A stretch of DNA of 5,939 bases, from assembly GCA_007125255.1 (NCBI GenBank), contig SLDM01000382.1, positions 1-5,939 on the forward strand, given 5' to 3'. Of this stretch, positions 1-5,622 are shown in pieces; within the stretch, counting starts at the first letter, position 1; each line of letters begins with the position of its first letter. Source of the stretch: Phycisphaerales bacterium (lineage in GTDB: Bacteria > Planctomycetota > Phycisphaerae > Phycisphaerales > SM1A02). The translations under genes and the position numbers were made by a program. The notes below the pieces were generated by a model. The model searched no databases, was not told where the DNA came from, and saw nothing but the letters and a program-made list of their open reading frames with translations.

Positions 1-702
1 GATCGAGCGGACGAATGCGTCGAGGATGGCATTCGTGACCGGGCGCGGAAAGCGGCCATTGGGGCTGAGGAGTCCCTGGTTGACCTCCAGTTCGATGCCG
101 AGGTAGCAATCTGCGCCGAACGTGCGGCGCAGCGCGGTGGTCAGGCCGTCATCGCGGCCGCGGTAGGGATAGTTGCGGCGCACGCGGTGCTCCGGCAGGC
201 GGCGGCGCAGTTCGCGTTGCCAGCGCACGCACAGATCGCGTTCCGCTGTTCGCGCAGGATCGTAGAGCAGACCGATGGAGGCGTTACGGGGCCGGTCATC
301 GAGCACCGGGGTGAAGGTATGCACGCCCACGTGCACGACCGGCTGGCGGCGCGCCTGCAGCAATGTTTCGATCGCCTCAATCACGCTGGTGCGGTGGGGG
401 TGGTACCACCGCTCAAGCAGGCGCGTACGCTGCTGCGGGGTGAGCTCCCTGGTGATGTCACTGAGCAGAGCGCGGTGGTGCGGCGATCGGTTCAACTCCA
501 CCACAAGACGCGAGGTCGTGGAGGCGATGAGCGGTGCCCGCAGATGCCTGGCGAGCCGCCGGGCCAGGGCCAGCGCGCCGGGGTCCCAGCCTTGATGGCT
601 CTCAAGACGTTCCTGGTGCAGCCGGAAGAGGGGGGCGAGGGATCCGGGCACACGGTTGCCGCCGTGTTCACAGGTCACCAGAATCGATGGGCGCTTGGAC
701 AT
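1..702 (-). CDS. N-formylglutamate amidohydrolase family protein (3' end cut off by the window)
   Basis: This frame starts with ATG at 702 and stays open to the left edge, giving 234 codons with no stop. I translated it by hand. It begins MSKRPSILVTCEHGGNRVP. Family hallmarks of N-formylglutamate amidohydrolase (FGase, PF05013) are visible: CEHGGNRVP at residues 11-19, HQGWDPGA at 36-43, VELNRS at 68-73, HVGVHTFTP at 124-132, NYPYRGRDDGLT near 177-188 and GIELEVNQ at 202-209. These include the His, Glu and Asp residues expected to bind metal. The classical reaction hydrolyses N-formyl-L-glutamate to formate and glutamate in histidine degradation, but no hut genes are present. An in-frame TGA at 718-720 lies just upstream, so 702 is the earliest ATG. 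There is no good Shine-Dalgarno sequence. The gene starts 26 nt after the GCS2 stop, so coupling is likely. About 20-40 C-terminal residues are probably missing. In this cluster it may deacylate or hydrolyse a glutamyl product; that is inference. Confidence 0.92.
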   Translation of the reverse strand, partial: MSKRPSILVTCEHGGNRVPGSLAPLFRLHQERLESHQGWDPGALALARRLARHLRAPLIASTTSRLVVELNRSPHHRALLSDITRELTPQQRTRLLERWYHPHRTSVIEAIETLLQARRQPVVHVGVHTFTPVLDDRPRNASIGLLYDPARTAERDLCVRWQRELRRRLPEHRVRRNYPYRGRDDGLTTALRRTFGADCYLGIELEVNQGLLSPNGRFPRPVTNAILDAFVRSI

Positions 703-728
703 CCTGATTGAGGGGGCTCACGCCGCGA

Positions 729-1976
729 TCAGCTCTGAAACATCTGGCCGGTGCGCAGGCAGTCACACATCTGCCGGTACACGCCTTCGATGGCCGAACG
801 TTCCGGGTCACGGCCGATGGCGTTGACGATGCGCGTGGCCAGCGTGCCGCGCTGCAGGATGATCCGCAGTGCTTCGGCGAGGGATCGATCACACCCCGGC
901 GCCGTGAACAGGACATCTTCAAGCAGCGCGGCCCAGAGCTCGCCGGCGGTCATCGGCCGCTTCCCGTCGACCCCGAGGGCGCGACGGTAGGCCCCATCCG
1001 CGATCACGGCCGATTCGCCGTGCGCTATCGTCTCCAGCAGAATTTTCTCGAGCGGATCGATCGGCCAGCTCATCTGCTCTTCCAACCCGATCCACCGCTG
1101 ATCGATCAGTGCCCCGATGACCGCGCAGACCGCGCGAAGGATGGCCAAATCCGCCCTGGGGCACTCCTGGATATCCAGCACGCGGATCTCGATCGCGCCG
1201 CGATCAAAGCGGGCGATGGCGCCGCGGGCGTTGAGCCACTCTTCCTGCAGGATCTGGTCGGGATCGTACGGGGCAATCGCGCGGTAGAGCGGCTGGAAGA
1301 TGCCTTCGTCGTAGGCCGCCGCCGTGAAGAGCGGCTCCGGGATGACCCGGCCGCTGACCTGGGGCACGCGCCGGGCATTGTGGCGATAGACCTCCAGCCG
1401 GTGATCACGATGGGCGGTCGTGCGGCCGTCCATGATCGGCGAGCTGGCCGCCAGCGCGGGTAGAATCGGCAGGATCAGGCGGATTGCCGCGTGCAACCTG
1501 GCAAACTGCGCATCGCCGTTGAACGAAAGGTTCAGATGCACACTCTGCAGGTTGGCCCAGCCGTGGCCGCGACAGTCGAAGATGCGATTGAACGCTTCGT
1601 AGACGGGGCTGTACTCGTGCGGCCAGAGCTTCATTTCCGCAAACGGGTCCATCCAGGGGTGGGTGGCGGTGGGCATGAGCTGGGCACCGTGAGGCTCGAG
1701 CCGGGCGTTGACATCCGCAACGTGCCGTTGAAAGAGCGCGTCAAGCCCGTCAAGTGACTTCACCGGACCGTTGGTCTTCAGCTCAACCACATGCAGCGGC
1801 AGTTCGTTCGACCAGCACAGCTCGCCCATCTCGATCTCGGCGTCATAGCGCTGGACCACATCGTGGATGAGCCGGTCGCAGATCGGCTGCACGTTGAGCG
1901 TCTGCCGGTCCACGATCATGTACTCCAGCTCGACGCCGTAGCCTTCGAAGAGATTGAGCCGCGCCGGTGAGCTCAT
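729..1976 (-). CDS. GCS2-family carboxylate-amine ligase (glutamate-cysteine ligase-like, YbdK type)
   Basis: The 415-residue product matches the glutamate-cysteine ligase family 2 fold (GCS2, COG2170-like), which has a glutamine-synthetase-type catalytic core using ATP and divalent metal to join a carboxylate to an amine. Visible motifs are GYGVELEYMIVD at residues 12-23, with the metal-binding E16 and E18; VELKTNGP at 64-71; MPTATHPW at 101-108; NLQSVHLNLSFNGD at 142-155, with H147; MDGRTTAHRDHRLEVYR at 182-198; and RGAIEIRVLDIQECPRAD at 259-276. Length is in the usual range (about 370-430). The ATG overlaps the ligase stop upstream as ATGA (1973-1976) and is preceded by a strong Shine-Dalgarno sequence, so the start is secure and translation is probably coupled. 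Members of this family often lack true gamma-glutamylcysteine synthetase activity. Lying beside an ATP-grasp ligase, this one probably makes a glutamyl- or other aminoacyl-amide. The substrate cannot be read from sequence. Confidence 0.93.
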   Translation of the reverse strand: MSSPARLNLFEGYGVELEYMIVDRQTLNVQPICDRLIHDVVQRYDAEIEMGELCWSNELPLHVVELKTNGPVKSLDGLDALFQRHVADVNARLEPHGAQLMPTATHPWMDPFAEMKLWPHEYSPVYEAFNRIFDCRGHGWANLQSVHLNLSFNGDAQFARLHAAIRLILPILPALAASSPIMDGRTTAHRDHRLEVYRHNARRVPQVSGRVIPEPLFTAAAYDEGIFQPLYRAIAPYDPDQILQEEWLNARGAIARFDRGAIEIRVLDIQECPRADLAILRAVCAVIGALIDQRWIGLEEQMSWPIDPLEKILLETIAHGESAVIADGAYRRALGVDGKRPMTAGELWAALLEDVLFTAPGCDRSLAEALRIILQRGTLATRIVNAIGRDPERSAIEGVYRQMCDCLRTGQMFQS

Positions 1977-3454
1977 CGCCGCGCTCCTCCCTGCTTGAGG
2001 CCGCGGCCGCGAACCCGGGTGAGAAAGACCCGCATGATCCGTTCGTAGAGCTCATCACCCAGGACGCCATCCTCCTCACCCGCTTCGATGGTGGGATTGT
2101 CGTTGACCTCGATGACCAGGTTCCTCCGGCCGAACTGCTTCATGTCGACGCCGTACAACCCGTCGCCGATCAGGTTCGCCGCCCGGAGTGCGTTGCGCAG
2201 GATGCCGCGGGGGACGCCTTCCATCGGCACCGCTTCGACGGCCCCGTATCGCCGGCCCCCGCGCCCGTCCTGGCTGACGATCTGCCAGTGCTTCGGCGCC
2301 ATGTGATACTTACACGCATAGAGCGGCTTGCGATCCAGGATGCCGATGCGCCAGTCGAACTCCGTGGGCGTGAACTCCTGGGCGATGACGAGATCGGAAC
2401 GGTCAAGCAGTTCCGCGGTGTACTGCGCCAATTCGGCGGAGGTGGTCGCCTTGCGCACACCGGTGGAGAAGCTCCCATCGGGCTCCTTGAGAATGCACGG
2501 CAGACCCAGTTCCCGCTCGACCGATGCCGCGTTCTGGCGGTGCACGATCATCGTGCGCGGCCCGGAGATGCGGTGCCGATCAAGCATCTCGGCAAGAAAC
2601 ACCTTGTTGGTGCAGCGCACGATCGACTCCGGGTCATCCATCACCACCACGCCCTCTGCCGCAGCGCGGCGGGAAAAACGGTAGGTGTGATGATTCACCT
2701 GCGTCATCTCGCGGATCAACATCGCATCAAACTCGGCGACGTGTCCGAAGTCCTCCCGCGTGATCAGGTACACACCGAAGCCGAGTTCCTCGGCCGCGTC
2801 CGCGAACTTGCGCATTGCCTTCGGATCGGATGGCGCTGTATCGGGCTGGTCCGGCGCGTGCAGGATGGCCAGGTCGTACTGCGTCACGCGCCGCTGGCCG
2901 GAGGCGGGCCGCCGGCCGGCGAAGTACTCGGTGGCCGCGCTGAGGACGAACGAACGGTGGCTCTCCGGGACTTCATTCATCGAGACCGCCTTCACGCGCA
3001 GCAACTGCCACTGTCGACTGTCCCGGGCGAACTCCGCCCGCAACATCGGTGCCGGCAGCAGGTTGAAGAGCGCCCGGCTCAGCGCGGCGTAGCGCTTGGC
3101 CGTGTTCTGGCCGAAGTAGATGCTCAGAACGAAGCGCTGGGCCTGCAGGGGGCGCAGTGACCGCTGAATGAGATCGTGCAGGTCCTCCGTCACCGATCGC
3201 ACGATCGTGTGCGATTTGAGGTCCTGCATCGTGATGACGCTGGGAAGTGGGCGATGGCTCCGCGCGGCCGCGAGCAGAGAGACGTAGTAGCCGAGAGATT
3301 GATACTGGTAGGACCGGCACAGGTTGAAGACCCGCGTCGACCGCAGCGCGGCAAACGAGGCGTCCGTGAGGTATTGACGGCTGGAGACGACCTCCACGCC
3401 GGGAATGTGCAGCGGCCAGTCCTTCGGATCGTTCACAATGACCAGTGTTGGCAT
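1973..3454 (-). CDS. RimK-family ATP-grasp ligase with RLAN N-terminal domain
   Basis: The 493-residue protein has two parts. The N-terminal half resembles the RLAN (RimK-like ATP-grasp N-terminal) domain: FNLCRSYQYQSLGYYVSLLA at residues 43-62, then IYFGQ (112-116) and LPAPMLR (133-139). A RimK-type ATP-grasp module follows. Visible motifs are MDDPESIVRCTNKVFLAEML (272-291), the nucleotide-binding PCILKEPDGSFSTGV (319-333) with K323 and a Gly/Ser loop, EFTPTEFDWRIGIL (360-373), GLYGVDMKQ (432-440) with D437, and VIEVNDNPTIEAGEED (447-462), whose E449 and N451 fit the Mg-ATP ligands. ATP-grasp ligases activate a carboxylate as acyl-phosphate and couple it to an amine; RimK itself adds glutamates to the C-terminus of ribosomal protein S6. 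This protein is far longer than RimK (about 300 residues) and is unlikely to be the S6 modifier. ATG at 3454 is 2 nt after the peptidase stop, with no Shine-Dalgarno, which suggests reinitiation. The substrate is unknown. Confidence 0.93.
   Translation of the reverse strand: MPTLVIVNDPKDWPLHIPGVEVVSSRQYLTDASFAALRSTRVFNLCRSYQYQSLGYYVSLLAAARSHRPLPSVITMQDLKSHTIVRSVTEDLHDLIQRSLRPLQAQRFVLSIYFGQNTAKRYAALSRALFNLLPAPMLRAEFARDSRQWQLLRVKAVSMNEVPESHRSFVLSAATEYFAGRRPASGQRRVTQYDLAILHAPDQPDTAPSDPKAMRKFADAAEELGFGVYLITREDFGHVAEFDAMLIREMTQVNHHTYRFSRRAAAEGVVVMDDPESIVRCTNKVFLAEMLDRHRISGPRTMIVHRQNAASVERELGLPCILKEPDGSFSTGVRKATTSAELAQYTAELLDRSDLVIAQEFTPTEFDWRIGILDRKPLYACKYHMAPKHWQIVSQDGRGGRRYGAVEAVPMEGVPRGILRNALRAANLIGDGLYGVDMKQFGRRNLVIEVNDNPTIEAGEEDGVLGDELYERIMRVFLTRVRGRGLKQGGARR
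1984..1991 (-). promoter_or_regulatory. Strong Shine-Dalgarno sequence for the GCS2-family ligase gene
   Basis: On the minus strand the sequence reads GGGAGGAG, then 7 nt, then the ATG ending the ATGA overlap. It lies inside the last codons of the upstream ATP-grasp gene, encoding part of its QGGARR tail. It is the only clear ribosome binding site in the window and it fixes the start at 1976. Confidence 0.8.
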
Positions 3455-3456
3455 GT

Positions 3457-4167
3457 TCAGTCAGCCGGCTGCAGAATGAGAAGGTTGGCATCATACGTCA
3501 TGATGCCCAGCAGAATGGCATTGAGCAGTCGGTCGATCGGGATGTGGTAGAGCTGTTCGCTGGAGAGGGGGTTGGGCGACAACGGATCAGCCACGAGGAC
3601 CTGCTTGTGCTGCTGGTCGTAGCCGCACAATACGACGAAATGGCCCGTCGGCTCACCGCGCAGATCATCGTAGTTCATGCGTCCCGGCTCGACGTCAACT
3701 TCCCGCGGGCAGCGATAGAGATAGGTCGCGCTGAGCCCGGTCAGGATCGGCAGGCCGCGCTTGAGATACCGCCGAATCAGCGAACGGCTGAGCTCCTCAA
3801 AGACCAGTTCGCCGCCGAAGGCGAGATAGTCAATGTACCCCTGTGACGCCGCAAGCAGCTTCGGGTCAGACTTCACCCGCATCTGCGCCTCAAGCCGCTC
3901 GGTGAGATCCACCTCCGGCTGGTCAAACCAGGTCGGATCGAAGACACGCAGGTTGTAGGTGTAGATCCGTGCCGCAAAGCCGCGCTGCAGCGCGTGACTG
4001 GCAAGCTGGACGGCAAGCGTCCCACCGTCATCAAGTTGCGCAACTTCATTGATGATCGTATTCAACGGCTGGTCGATGCCGTAATAGCGATACACCGAAT
4101 GAAGGCACGTCGGCCCGCAGGTCATGTCATTCGGCTGGGCGTGGATGTCAAAGTTAAGTCTGGTCAC
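3457..4167 (-). CDS. Stand-alone C39-like cysteine peptidase
   Basis: The 236-residue protein has a complete papain-like C39 constellation: oxyanion-hole Q11 and nucleophile C17 in QPNDMTCGPTCL (11-22), H176 in GHFVVLCGYD (175-184), and D194 in VADPLSPNP (192-200). I see no signal peptide, membrane segment or ABC transporter domain, so it is probably cytoplasmic and not a bacteriocin exporter peptidase. The start is GTG at 4165-4167. An in-frame TGA sits two codons upstream (4171-4173), and the next ATG (codon 15) would delete Q11, so GTG is the best choice. No good Shine-Dalgarno sequence precedes it. The stop lies 2 nt before the ATP-grasp gene, a tight coupling that suggests a shared pathway. 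In pseudomonads I recall related C39 domains fused to a GNAT acetyltransferase next to an RLAN-RimK gene; no GNAT domain is present here. It may cleave or trans-amidate the ligase product. Function is inferred from family and context. Confidence 0.88.
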   Translation of the reverse strand: MTRLNFDIHAQPNDMTCGPTCLHSVYRYYGIDQPLNTIINEVAQLDDGGTLAVQLASHALQRGFAARIYTYNLRVFDPTWFDQPEVDLTERLEAQMRVKSDPKLLAASQGYIDYLAFGGELVFEELSRSLIRRYLKRGLPILTGLSATYLYRCPREVDVEPGRMNYDDLRGEPTGHFVVLCGYDQQHKQVLVADPLSPNPLSSEQLYHIPIDRLLNAILLGIMTYDANLLILQPAD

Positions 4168-4347
4168 GTGTCAGTACAGTATGCCTGATATCGCCCTGAA
4201 GAATCTTCGATGCACCGTGGCGTGCTTTGGGCCTGGACACGATTGAGCCGCCGGTCGATTGGATCAGGTTTCGGGTTTGAATGCAGGTCTCGCTGCTATT
4301 CGTGGTGTGGGACATGCCATGAATCTCTCGGATCATTCTATTCGCCG
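4168..4347. other. Intergenic gap within the cluster, no firm gene
   Basis: These 180 bp separate the metalloprotein stop from the GTG of the C39-like gene. About 57% of the bases counted in 4201-4320 are G or C, a little below the flanking genes. I find no convincing sigma-70 promoter, no hairpin followed by a T-run, and no tRNA-like fold. A 60-codon minus-strand frame (4336-4154) fills the gap and overlaps the start of the peptidase gene. Its translation (MIREIHGMSHTTNSSETC...) has no recognisable motif and no Shine-Dalgarno sequence, so I do not call it a gene. The gap could hold a second promoter or an untranslated leader. Confidence 0.5.
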
Positions 4348-5622
4348 TCAGATATGCTCGCTGCGCCGGAACTCGGAAAGATCAGCAGTCTCCAGACTCA
4401 ACAGGTCCGTGAAGGCTGCGTAGAGGAGGTGGGCTGCGAGACAGTGGCGATTCTTCGCCCATTCCGGCTCGTAGATCGGCGGCGCGATGGTGCCGGCTTC
4501 GAAGTACGGCTCCAAAGCGACGACATCCCCCAGCGTCATGCGGCCGGCAAAGAAGCGGTGGCAGAAGTCACTCTTGCCCTGTTGAATCGCCTTGCGGAGG
4601 AACGTGTGAACGATGATCAGTCCTTCGAGGTAGAGAACATCCTTCGTGAAGGCGACCCCGCCCCTCACATCCCCGCCGCGGAAGACGCGCATCGCCGAGA
4701 GACAGCTCTCCTGCTCGTTCTGGCCGGCGTCGAGGAAGAAACGAAAGATGTCGATGAAGTCCGCGCCCTCGAGCGCCTGGTGGACGGCCTTGATGCGCAG
4801 TGCAACCCGCCGAAGCCGGGCGAGATCAATCGTTCCGGTGATCAGTTCCGCGAACGTGGCGAGGCCTTCCTGCGCGCCGGTGGTGCGCGGCGCGCCGAGG
4901 CCGAGACTCTTGATGTGTGGTTGCTCCTTGCCGTTGAGAATCGTGGCGGTATGGACGAACGCTTCGTGGTGCAGGAGCTGGCCGATATCCATCTCCGAGT
5001 AGCGCGTCCCGCCGCGCAGGTTGATGCGGCGGGCGCCGGCGGTGGCCTTGGAAGGCAACTTCGGGTCGATCACGATATCGACGGTGTGCCGATCGAAGAA
5101 CGCGGCGCATTCGGTCCGCATACGATCGGCGACATGCTCCGCGGTGAGATGGAACTCGCTTGCGCCGAGAAAGGAACAGGCGCGGAAATCATCCGTCGCA
5201 TCGAGAAAGTGTTGGGCCGCGTCCAGGTTGGTCAGATCACCCCAGCCGATGTGGTCGCCGGGCATCGCGTAGAGGTGGCCGGACAGCGCGGAAAATTCAG
5301 GCGTGCCCCGGCTCTGCATCATCCGGGCCGCGATGATGTAGCTCTGGGCCGTGCGGTGGATGTAGTCGCCGAGCGGATCACCGCGGTCACACGCTTCGGC
5401 GACCGACTGCAGCGCGGCAATTTCCTGCGCGTAGTCCACGGGGCGATAGTCGATCTCGGGCAGTCGGGGTGAGCCGTTCTTCCAGCCTGTCAGGAAGTCG
5501 CGGCCGACCTCGATCGGCCAGTCGAGGTGCGCCAGAACGCGAATATCCCGGGCCGCCTGCACGAGGCGCGCGTCGAGTTCAATCATGCGGGCCAGGGCCG
5601 GATCAGTGGTGGGTGTTGCCAT
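4348..5622 (-). CDS. DUF1704 'QEGLA motif' zincin-like metalloprotein (MATCAP-related)
   Basis: The 424-residue protein belongs to the family often named 'flavohemoglobin expression-modulating QEGLA motif protein' (DUF1704/TIGR02421). The name-giving motif is GAQEGLATFAEL at residues 249-260. HHEAFVHTAT (218-227) contains a non-canonical zinc motif HExxxH: H219 and H224 as ligands and E220 as catalytic base, with E252 of QEGLA as the likely third ligand. FTKDVLYLEG (325-334) is another conserved segment. The family includes eukaryotic MATCAP (KIAA0895L), a carboxypeptidase that removes the terminal tyrosine of alpha-tubulin, so a carboxypeptidase-like role is plausible. All expected catalytic residues are present, and no signal peptide or membrane segment is visible. 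ATG at 5622 gives the full-length protein; it lacks a Shine-Dalgarno sequence, and an in-frame ATG at codon 13 is an alternative. It is the first gene of the cluster, 180 bp before the next. The true substrate in bacteria is unknown. Confidence 0.9.
   Translation of the reverse strand: MATPTTDPALARMIELDARLVQAARDIRVLAHLDWPIEVGRDFLTGWKNGSPRLPEIDYRPVDYAQEIAALQSVAEACDRGDPLGDYIHRTAQSYIIAARMMQSRGTPEFSALSGHLYAMPGDHIGWGDLTNLDAAQHFLDATDDFRACSFLGASEFHLTAEHVADRMRTECAAFFDRHTVDIVIDPKLPSKATAGARRINLRGGTRYSEMDIGQLLHHEAFVHTATILNGKEQPHIKSLGLGAPRTTGAQEGLATFAELITGTIDLARLRRVALRIKAVHQALEGADFIDIFRFFLDAGQNEQESCLSAMRVFRGGDVRGGVAFTKDVLYLEGLIIVHTFLRKAIQQGKSDFCHRFFAGRMTLGDVVALEPYFEAGTIAPPIYEPEWAKNRHCLAAHLLYAAFTDLLSLETADLSEFRRSEHI

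Follow-up and report, generated by a model that had tools for sequence, protein, structure and literature searches.

We asked whether five genes that lie on one strand of a Phycisphaerales contig (SLDM01000382.1, assembly GCA_007125255.1, phylum Planctomycetota) form a single functional unit, and what such a unit could make. The window analysed here is this entire contig, 5.9 kb in length, from a source genome that is 63% complete and divided into 548 contigs. Along the minus strand the genes encode a MATCAP metallocarboxypeptidase-like protein, a C39-like papain-fold peptidase, a ligase with an RLAN and a RimK-like ATP-grasp domain, a GCS2-family carboxylate-amine ligase and a member of the FGase (N-formylglutamate amidohydrolase) family, the last of which is incomplete because the contig ends inside it (Table 1). 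A preliminary description of the window had treated all five as one cluster. Its layout is exact by coordinates, with five genes on one strand and four of them spaced by −4 to 26 nucleotides (2 nucleotides between C39 and RLAN, a 4-nucleotide overlap of RLAN and GCS2, 26 nucleotides between GCS2 and FGase); MATCAP is the gene set apart, by 180 nucleotides. The guanine-plus-cytosine content is 64.0% for MATCAP, 59.5% for C39, 64.7% for RLAN, 64.9% for GCS2 and 67.7% for FGase, and 53.9% in the 180-nucleotide gap. The window gave zero matches to Rfam.

The conserved unit is C39-RLAN-GCS2, often with FGase, and thus comprises four genes, not five. We examined 99 loci (97 distinct) carrying RLAN genes: the best 80 of 581 relatives from named genomes, which are biased to likeness with the window by this choice, and wider stretches from 19 of 20 other RLAN-bearing relatives. 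Same-strand partners near RLAN were C39 at 87 of the 99 loci, GCS2 at 87 and FGase at 58; C39 and GCS2 were each missing at 12, some of these at contig ends. Because of these neighbourhood counts, we regard the cassette as more than a chance arrangement. By deposited titles, the trio occurs in about twelve phylum-level groups, including Planctomycetota, Pseudomonadota, Bacteroidota, Verrucomicrobiota, Nitrospirota, Desulfobacterota, Spirochaetota and Omnitrophota, and the best named homologues of the window RLAN ligase include Phycisphaerales and Phycisphaerae proteins. In 2000 permutations no value reached the observed gene-to-gene distance correlations, computed for 81 three-gene and 54 four-gene loci; the weakest pair in the four-gene set was C39-FGase, with a correlation of 0.28 against a best permutation of 0.27. 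A scan of the 99 loci listed no open reading frame that joins two of the four families. The cassette is real, old and widespread, and of a known kind: Iyer et al. (2009) reportedly described neighbourhoods in which ligases of the ATP-grasp and GCS2-like types occur together with peptidases whose folds are unrelated. The literature searched, with most subscription journals outside its coverage, holds no description of the cassette or of a bacterial MATCAP/DUF1704 function.

No further gene recurs across phyla. Pfam matches were sought in 74 of 86 selected upstream and 63 of 80 selected downstream proteins, and the 25 commonest of 105 and of 77 families were viewed; the commonest family is shared by 4 of the 74 proteins scanned upstream and by 4 of the 63 scanned downstream. 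As the preliminary description had it, no transporter, nonribosomal peptide synthetase or carrier protein is recognised in the window (only 5.9 kb, ending within FGase), and the 25 commonest families on each side include no dedicated transporter or carrier.

The claim of a five-gene unit fails at MATCAP, which is present in 1 of 61 relatives, namely the source genome itself, and in 0 of the 60 others; it lies near none of the other 99 RLAN genes, and an improved MATCAP profile found 0 matches in 1.61 Mb of 97 loci. The independent scatter that the preliminary description had named as speaking against a cluster is seen for short-form MATCAP and not for the four cassette genes, which stay together despite 8 of 99 RLAN genes lacking both C39 and GCS2 in the DNA examined. 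MATCAP thus appears to be a fifth gene recruited locally, in this lineage only.

Whether MATCAP has any part in the cassette is evenly balanced in our view, the alternative being a horizontally acquired gene that came to lie upstream by accident. The 180-nucleotide gap and the absence from other loci fit such an accident, and in genomes that carry both MATCAP and RLAN the two genes are seen far apart. The contigs that carry the closest homologues of the window MATCAP and of its RLAN have no length in common. The shared strand speaks for a connection. So does the absence of a terminator-like site in between (a scan of the upstream DNA found 0 promoters and 0 terminators), a weak point because only 1.2 such sites were expected. 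Among 392 genomes of the phylum, MATCAP occurs in 54, RLAN in 93 and both in 25, against 12.8 expected from the margins; RLAN is present in 25 of 54 MATCAP genomes and 68 of 338 others (Fisher p 1e-4), or in 23 of 54 and 56 of 338 after hand removal of 14 genomes with weak or partial RLAN matches (p 4e-5), all of these figures being uncorrected for relatedness.

The neighbourhoods of MATCAP itself divide by its form. We compared 61 of them in the phylum, that is, all 63 matches minus that of the window and one fragment with an internal stop. Among the 23 N-extended MATCAP genes, a glutathione-synthetase- or RimK-like ATP-grasp gene lies within 2.5 kb of 18 and an FGase gene within that distance of 12, and 4 carry a fused FGase domain; 14 have both kinds of partner. 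This tie of N-extended MATCAP to ATP-grasp and FGase genes argues against mere accident in the window. Among the 38 short MATCAP genes, an ATP-grasp gene is near 3, with an AstE-like gene also at 2 of these, FGase is near none, and 35 have no tested partner within 2.5 kb. Neither C39 nor GCS2 lies within 2.5 kb of MATCAP at any of the 61 loci, and, RLAN genes excepted, a profile of the MATCAP-linked type of ATP-grasp ligase found nothing further in the 1.61 Mb scanned at other loci. The window MATCAP is of the short kind, seldom found with partners, which argues against its sharing a pathway with the cassette there.

What the cassette may do is suggested first by its ligases. The preliminary description had recognised two unrelated ATP-dependent C-N ligases, and both families score above their Pfam cut-offs. 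GCS2-fold ligases attach an amine to glutamate at the gamma-carboxyl; ATP-grasp ligases lengthen a carboxyl end by way of an acyl phosphate. In the GCS2 protein, residues E16, E18, N57, E58, H147, N149, R166, E263 and R265 are invariant in 32 sequences, and YbdK and plant glutamate-cysteine ligase rank first against its structure model (predicted local distance difference test score, pLDDT, 92.6). In the RLAN ligase, E449, N451, D452, N453 and P454 are invariant across 35 aligned sequences; they belong to an EVNDNP stretch which, by analogy with the ATP-grasp family, is predicted to have a metal-binding role. In the PDB, the RLAN profile finds its best sequence matches among S6-modification and alpha-L-glutamate ligases (3vpd, E 3.3e-10; 7qyr, E 1.5e-09). 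The scores of the window ligase lie below the NCBIfam cut-offs for the RimK S6 ligase (PRK10446, 20.3 against 331) and the RimK family (TIGR00768, 53.3 against 143.4).

The catalytic residues of the two peptidases, reported earlier as intact, are conserved. The predicted catalytic residues Q11, C17, H176 and D194 of the C39-like protein are invariant in 49 aligned cassette sequences, and its structure model (pLDDT 94.2) matches the PCAT1 peptidase, PeiR and Alr0975. Alr0975 converts glutathione to gamma-glutamylcysteine, according to the title of a reference in PMC7411734. In the FGase, E12, H13, H124, H128, R139, E204 and E206 are invariant in 22 sequences, and the protein matches PDB entry 2odf (E 5.1e-21); against the HutG N-formylglutamate deformylase model (TIGR02017) it scores 17.3 with a cut-off of 278.75, a value for a partial copy whose full-length form could score higher. 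The protein noted earlier as an HExxxH zincin, its motif invariant in the alignment, belongs to the Pfam MATCAP family, which adds a link to tubulin-trimming enzymes that the first reading did not have: passages of PMC10499314 describe eukaryotic MATCAP enzymes as stripping C-terminal residues and glutamate chains from tubulin. The window protein scores 270.4 against the TIGR02421 QEGLA equivalog, below its cut-off of 338.65, and compared by sequence with the solved human protein it gives no significant match (E 0.083).

The preliminary description proposed that the cassette yields a peptide or tag that contains glutamate, and this is a fair inference. Gene order, families, residues, folds and conservation lead us to the more specific, tentative proposal that the cassette builds and degrades a small gamma-glutamyl peptide by a route parallel to glutathione metabolism. 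GCS2 would act in the manner of glutamate-cysteine ligase and link an amine or amino acid to the side-chain carboxyl of glutamate, or of a glutamate relative, giving a gamma-glutamyl dipeptide. The RLAN ATP-grasp enzyme may then add a further amino acid to the GCS2 product, in the place that GshB holds in glutathione synthesis. The C39-like enzyme could cleave the product via a Cys-His-Asp acyl-enzyme, as phytochelatin-synthase-like Alr0975 does with glutathione, while FGase would remove or release the glutamyl end and MATCAP, recruited in this lineage only, might trim the carboxyl end. The cassette resembles glutathione synthesis by GCS/GshA and GshB, together with an Alr0975-like peptidase, in having one GCS2-fold ligase, one ATP-grasp ligase and one papain-fold enzyme. 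It differs in that its ATP-grasp enzyme is RLAN/RimK-like and not GshB-like, its GCS2 falls outside the curated GshA, YbdK and EgtA models, and FGase is added.

Several results weigh against this gamma-glutamyl peptide proposal. Among proteins of known structure, those nearest in sequence to the RLAN enzyme are the glutamate-type ligases RimK, MptN/RimK-like and LysX and not GshB, and GCS2 lies under every matched NCBIfam glutamate-cysteine ligase or YbdK cut-off (TIGR02050, 51.2 against 176.4; PRK13517.1-1, 55.5 against 332; the EgtA model TIGR03444, 11.7 against 370.8). The C39-like protein resembles leader peptidases and an endoisopeptidase no less than it does Alr0975; it scores 14.4 against the phytochelatin synthase family (PF05023, cut-off 24.9), from which the fold likeness to Alr0975 stands apart. 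The bond cleaved by FGase need not be a gamma-glutamyl one, and the EgtC-like proteins found beside some cassettes score 189.6 to 203.7, under the model cut-off of 218.65. The distance correlations could be explained by shared vertical descent alone. Eight of the 99 RLAN genes lack both C39 and GCS2, and two plasmid-borne RLAN genes, in Pseudomonas aeruginosa and Azospirillum, have no partner within 17 kb. Such orphans indicate that the ligase can occur alone and has some use without partners.

A possible but somewhat doubtful alternative is that the cassette serves to put a glutamate-type extension on a protein C-terminus and to take it off again, the ligases adding and C39, FGase and MATCAP removing, much as RimK and RimB act on S6 (RpsF) or TTLL, CCP and MATCAP enzymes on tubulin. 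It ranks just after the gamma-glutamyl peptide proposal for three reasons: RimK-type ligases are the nearest to the RLAN enzyme, as its best PDB matches indicate; RimK and a partner protease are already established as writer and eraser (passages of PMC11957791); and eukaryotic MATCAP enzymes work on protein tails and shorten glutamate chains (passages of PMC10499314). One MATCAP gene (L158) also has as neighbours an AstE-like gene and a RimK gene whose product scores 325.8 bits on the S6 ligase model, just under its cut-off. The window ligase, on the other hand, falls far below that same cut-off, GCS2 has no role in known C-terminal tagging, and MATCAP is missing from the other cassettes. No candidate target recurs beside the cassette among the 25 commonest neighbour families per side, although a target could lie elsewhere. 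With the RimABK system of S6 glutamylation the cassette shares a RimK-like ATP-grasp ligase encoded with hydrolases; it differs in its RLAN domain, its low S6-ligase-model score and its additional GCS2, C39 and FGase, and no RimA or RimB is seen.

Rather unlikely, in our estimate, is a bacterial counterpart of the tubulin tyrosination/glutamylation cycle, in which ATP-grasp ligases add residues, MATCAP and FGase, co-encoded or fused, remove them, and the window represents a MATCAP eraser joined to an RLAN-GCS2 writer cassette. The window MATCAP has PF08014 and the HExxxH and EGL(A) metal motifs in common with the eukaryotic MATCAP/TMCP tubulin carboxypeptidases, but it is bacterial, has no tubulin to act on and lacks a significant match to the solved human protein. 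The operons of ATP-grasp, FGase and MATCAP genes (Shinella L124; planctomycete L176, L179, L182 and others; fused in L181, L183 and L184) bring the same three kinds of gene together; they differ in having a glutathione-synthetase-like ligase, an N-extended MATCAP and another FGase subgroup, with no GCS2 or C39 within 2.5 kb of the 61 MATCAP genes compared.

We consider it improbable that the cassette serves to salvage or detoxify compounds carrying N-acyl or gamma-glutamyl groups, with hydrolases as the main actors and ligases tagging the compound with glutamate for breakdown in the style of gamma-glutamyl-putrescine. In favour of this reading, hydrolases equal ligases in number, EgtC-like hydrolases adjoin 6 of 97 loci and amines can be glutamylated by GCS2-fold enzymes; against it, the commonest neighbour families (25 of 105 and 25 of 77) include no recurrent gene for an oxidase, an aminotransferase or uptake.

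Each cassette enzyme is a single protein that can be assayed, so the question of substrate and product is open to direct test. Every cassette family was already known; what is added here is the fusion of FGase with MATCAP, together with counts that set MATCAP apart from the four-gene cassette. The fusions and the ATP-grasp-FGase-MATCAP operons give a concrete biochemical context to bacterial relatives of tubulin-tail-trimming enzymes, one that could reveal the origin and first chemistry of the eukaryotic tail-editing enzymes.

Table 1. Genes and motifs of the window, and features of related loci. Pfam values are score/cut-off in bits.
Feature	Position	Strand	Details
MATCAP (PF08014, formerly DUF1704) metallocarboxypeptidase-like gene, short stand-alone form	5622-4348	minus	424 residues; Pfam 348.6/27
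HExxxH (H219-E220-x3-H224), predicted metal site	4951..4968	minus	Invariant in 4 sequences; motif role in human TMCP1 from passages of PMC10499314
QEGLA (251-255), E252 predicted third metal ligand	4858..4872	minus	Invariant in 4 sequences; ligand role predicted from passages on the TMCP1 EEG motif
C39-like papain-fold peptidase gene	4167-3457	minus	GTG start, 236 residues; PF13529 (Peptidase_C39_2) 49.8/24, PF03412 34.2/22
RLAN + RimK-like ATP-grasp ligase gene	3454-1973	minus	493 residues; PF14401 163.1/25, PF08443 25.4/21
EVNDNP (449-454), predicted Mg/ATP site of ATP-grasp domain	2093..2110	minus	E449, N451-P454 invariant
GCS2-family carboxylate-amine ligase gene	1976-729	minus	415 residues; PF04107 94.1/21
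FGase (N-formylglutamate amidohydrolase family) gene	702-1	minus	234 residues, incomplete at contig end; PF05013 84.1/28.9
FGase-MATCAP fused proteins	L181:8886-10910, L183:3293-5293, L184:9003-11006		Clear by Pfam; glutathione-synthetase-like ATP-grasp gene overlaps upstream end
FGase-MATCAP fused protein	L201:6986-9676		FGase exactly at Pfam cut-off; Prok-RING domain just below its own cut-off
EgtC-like class-II amidotransferase beside cassette	L022:13433-14491, L040:1262-2119, L048:8205-9095	opposite to cassette	EgtC-like by model scores
Recurrent protein of ~390 residues upstream of C39	L022:7911-9086, L023:8086-9243, L110:8012-9172 and others

The extensions of N-extended MATCAP proteins look alike by eye in L176 (7957-9963) and similar proteins (L177, L179, L180 and L182), and their first 240-290 residues have no Pfam match in L176 and L124. 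Beside the cassette, the EgtC-like class-II amidotransferase gene stands on the opposite strand at eight loci (six distinct, four of planctomycete-order and two of gammaproteobacterial origin). The protein of ~390 residues is encoded upstream of C39 at 10 of 99 loci, which with perhaps one exception come from planctomycete relatives; the one example scanned has no Pfam match at 1e-6. At a single locus an MscS-type channel gene follows GCS2 by 13 nucleotides (L024:12715-16236). In four Pontibacter loci (L076, L086, L095 and L096), genes that resemble arginine synthesis genes, judged from sequence starts (aminotransferase, carbamoyltransferase, M20 peptidase), lie within ~7 kb of the cassette.

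Orphan RLAN genes have neighbours of their own. A CorA gene adjoins one (L061:2869-3846), and ClC channel and ZnuA genes adjoin another (L120:6060-7787). Together with the MscS-type gene of L024, these single loci hint at a possible ion or osmotic connection, which we do not claim. A scan of IMG/VR found three contigs (L188, L189 and L190) that encode RLAN-type ATP-grasp relatives; viral carriage of the cassette was set aside, as these three ligase loci show no other cassette or MATCAP match in the DNA examined. The orphan on the Pseudomonas aeruginosa plasmid (L123:7902-9491) is near ggt and glutamate/aspartate transporter genes, and its chromosomal counterpart is presumably PA1345. PA1345 is listed in PMC12802237 as a hypothetical ATP-binding protein with a Cpx-type site.

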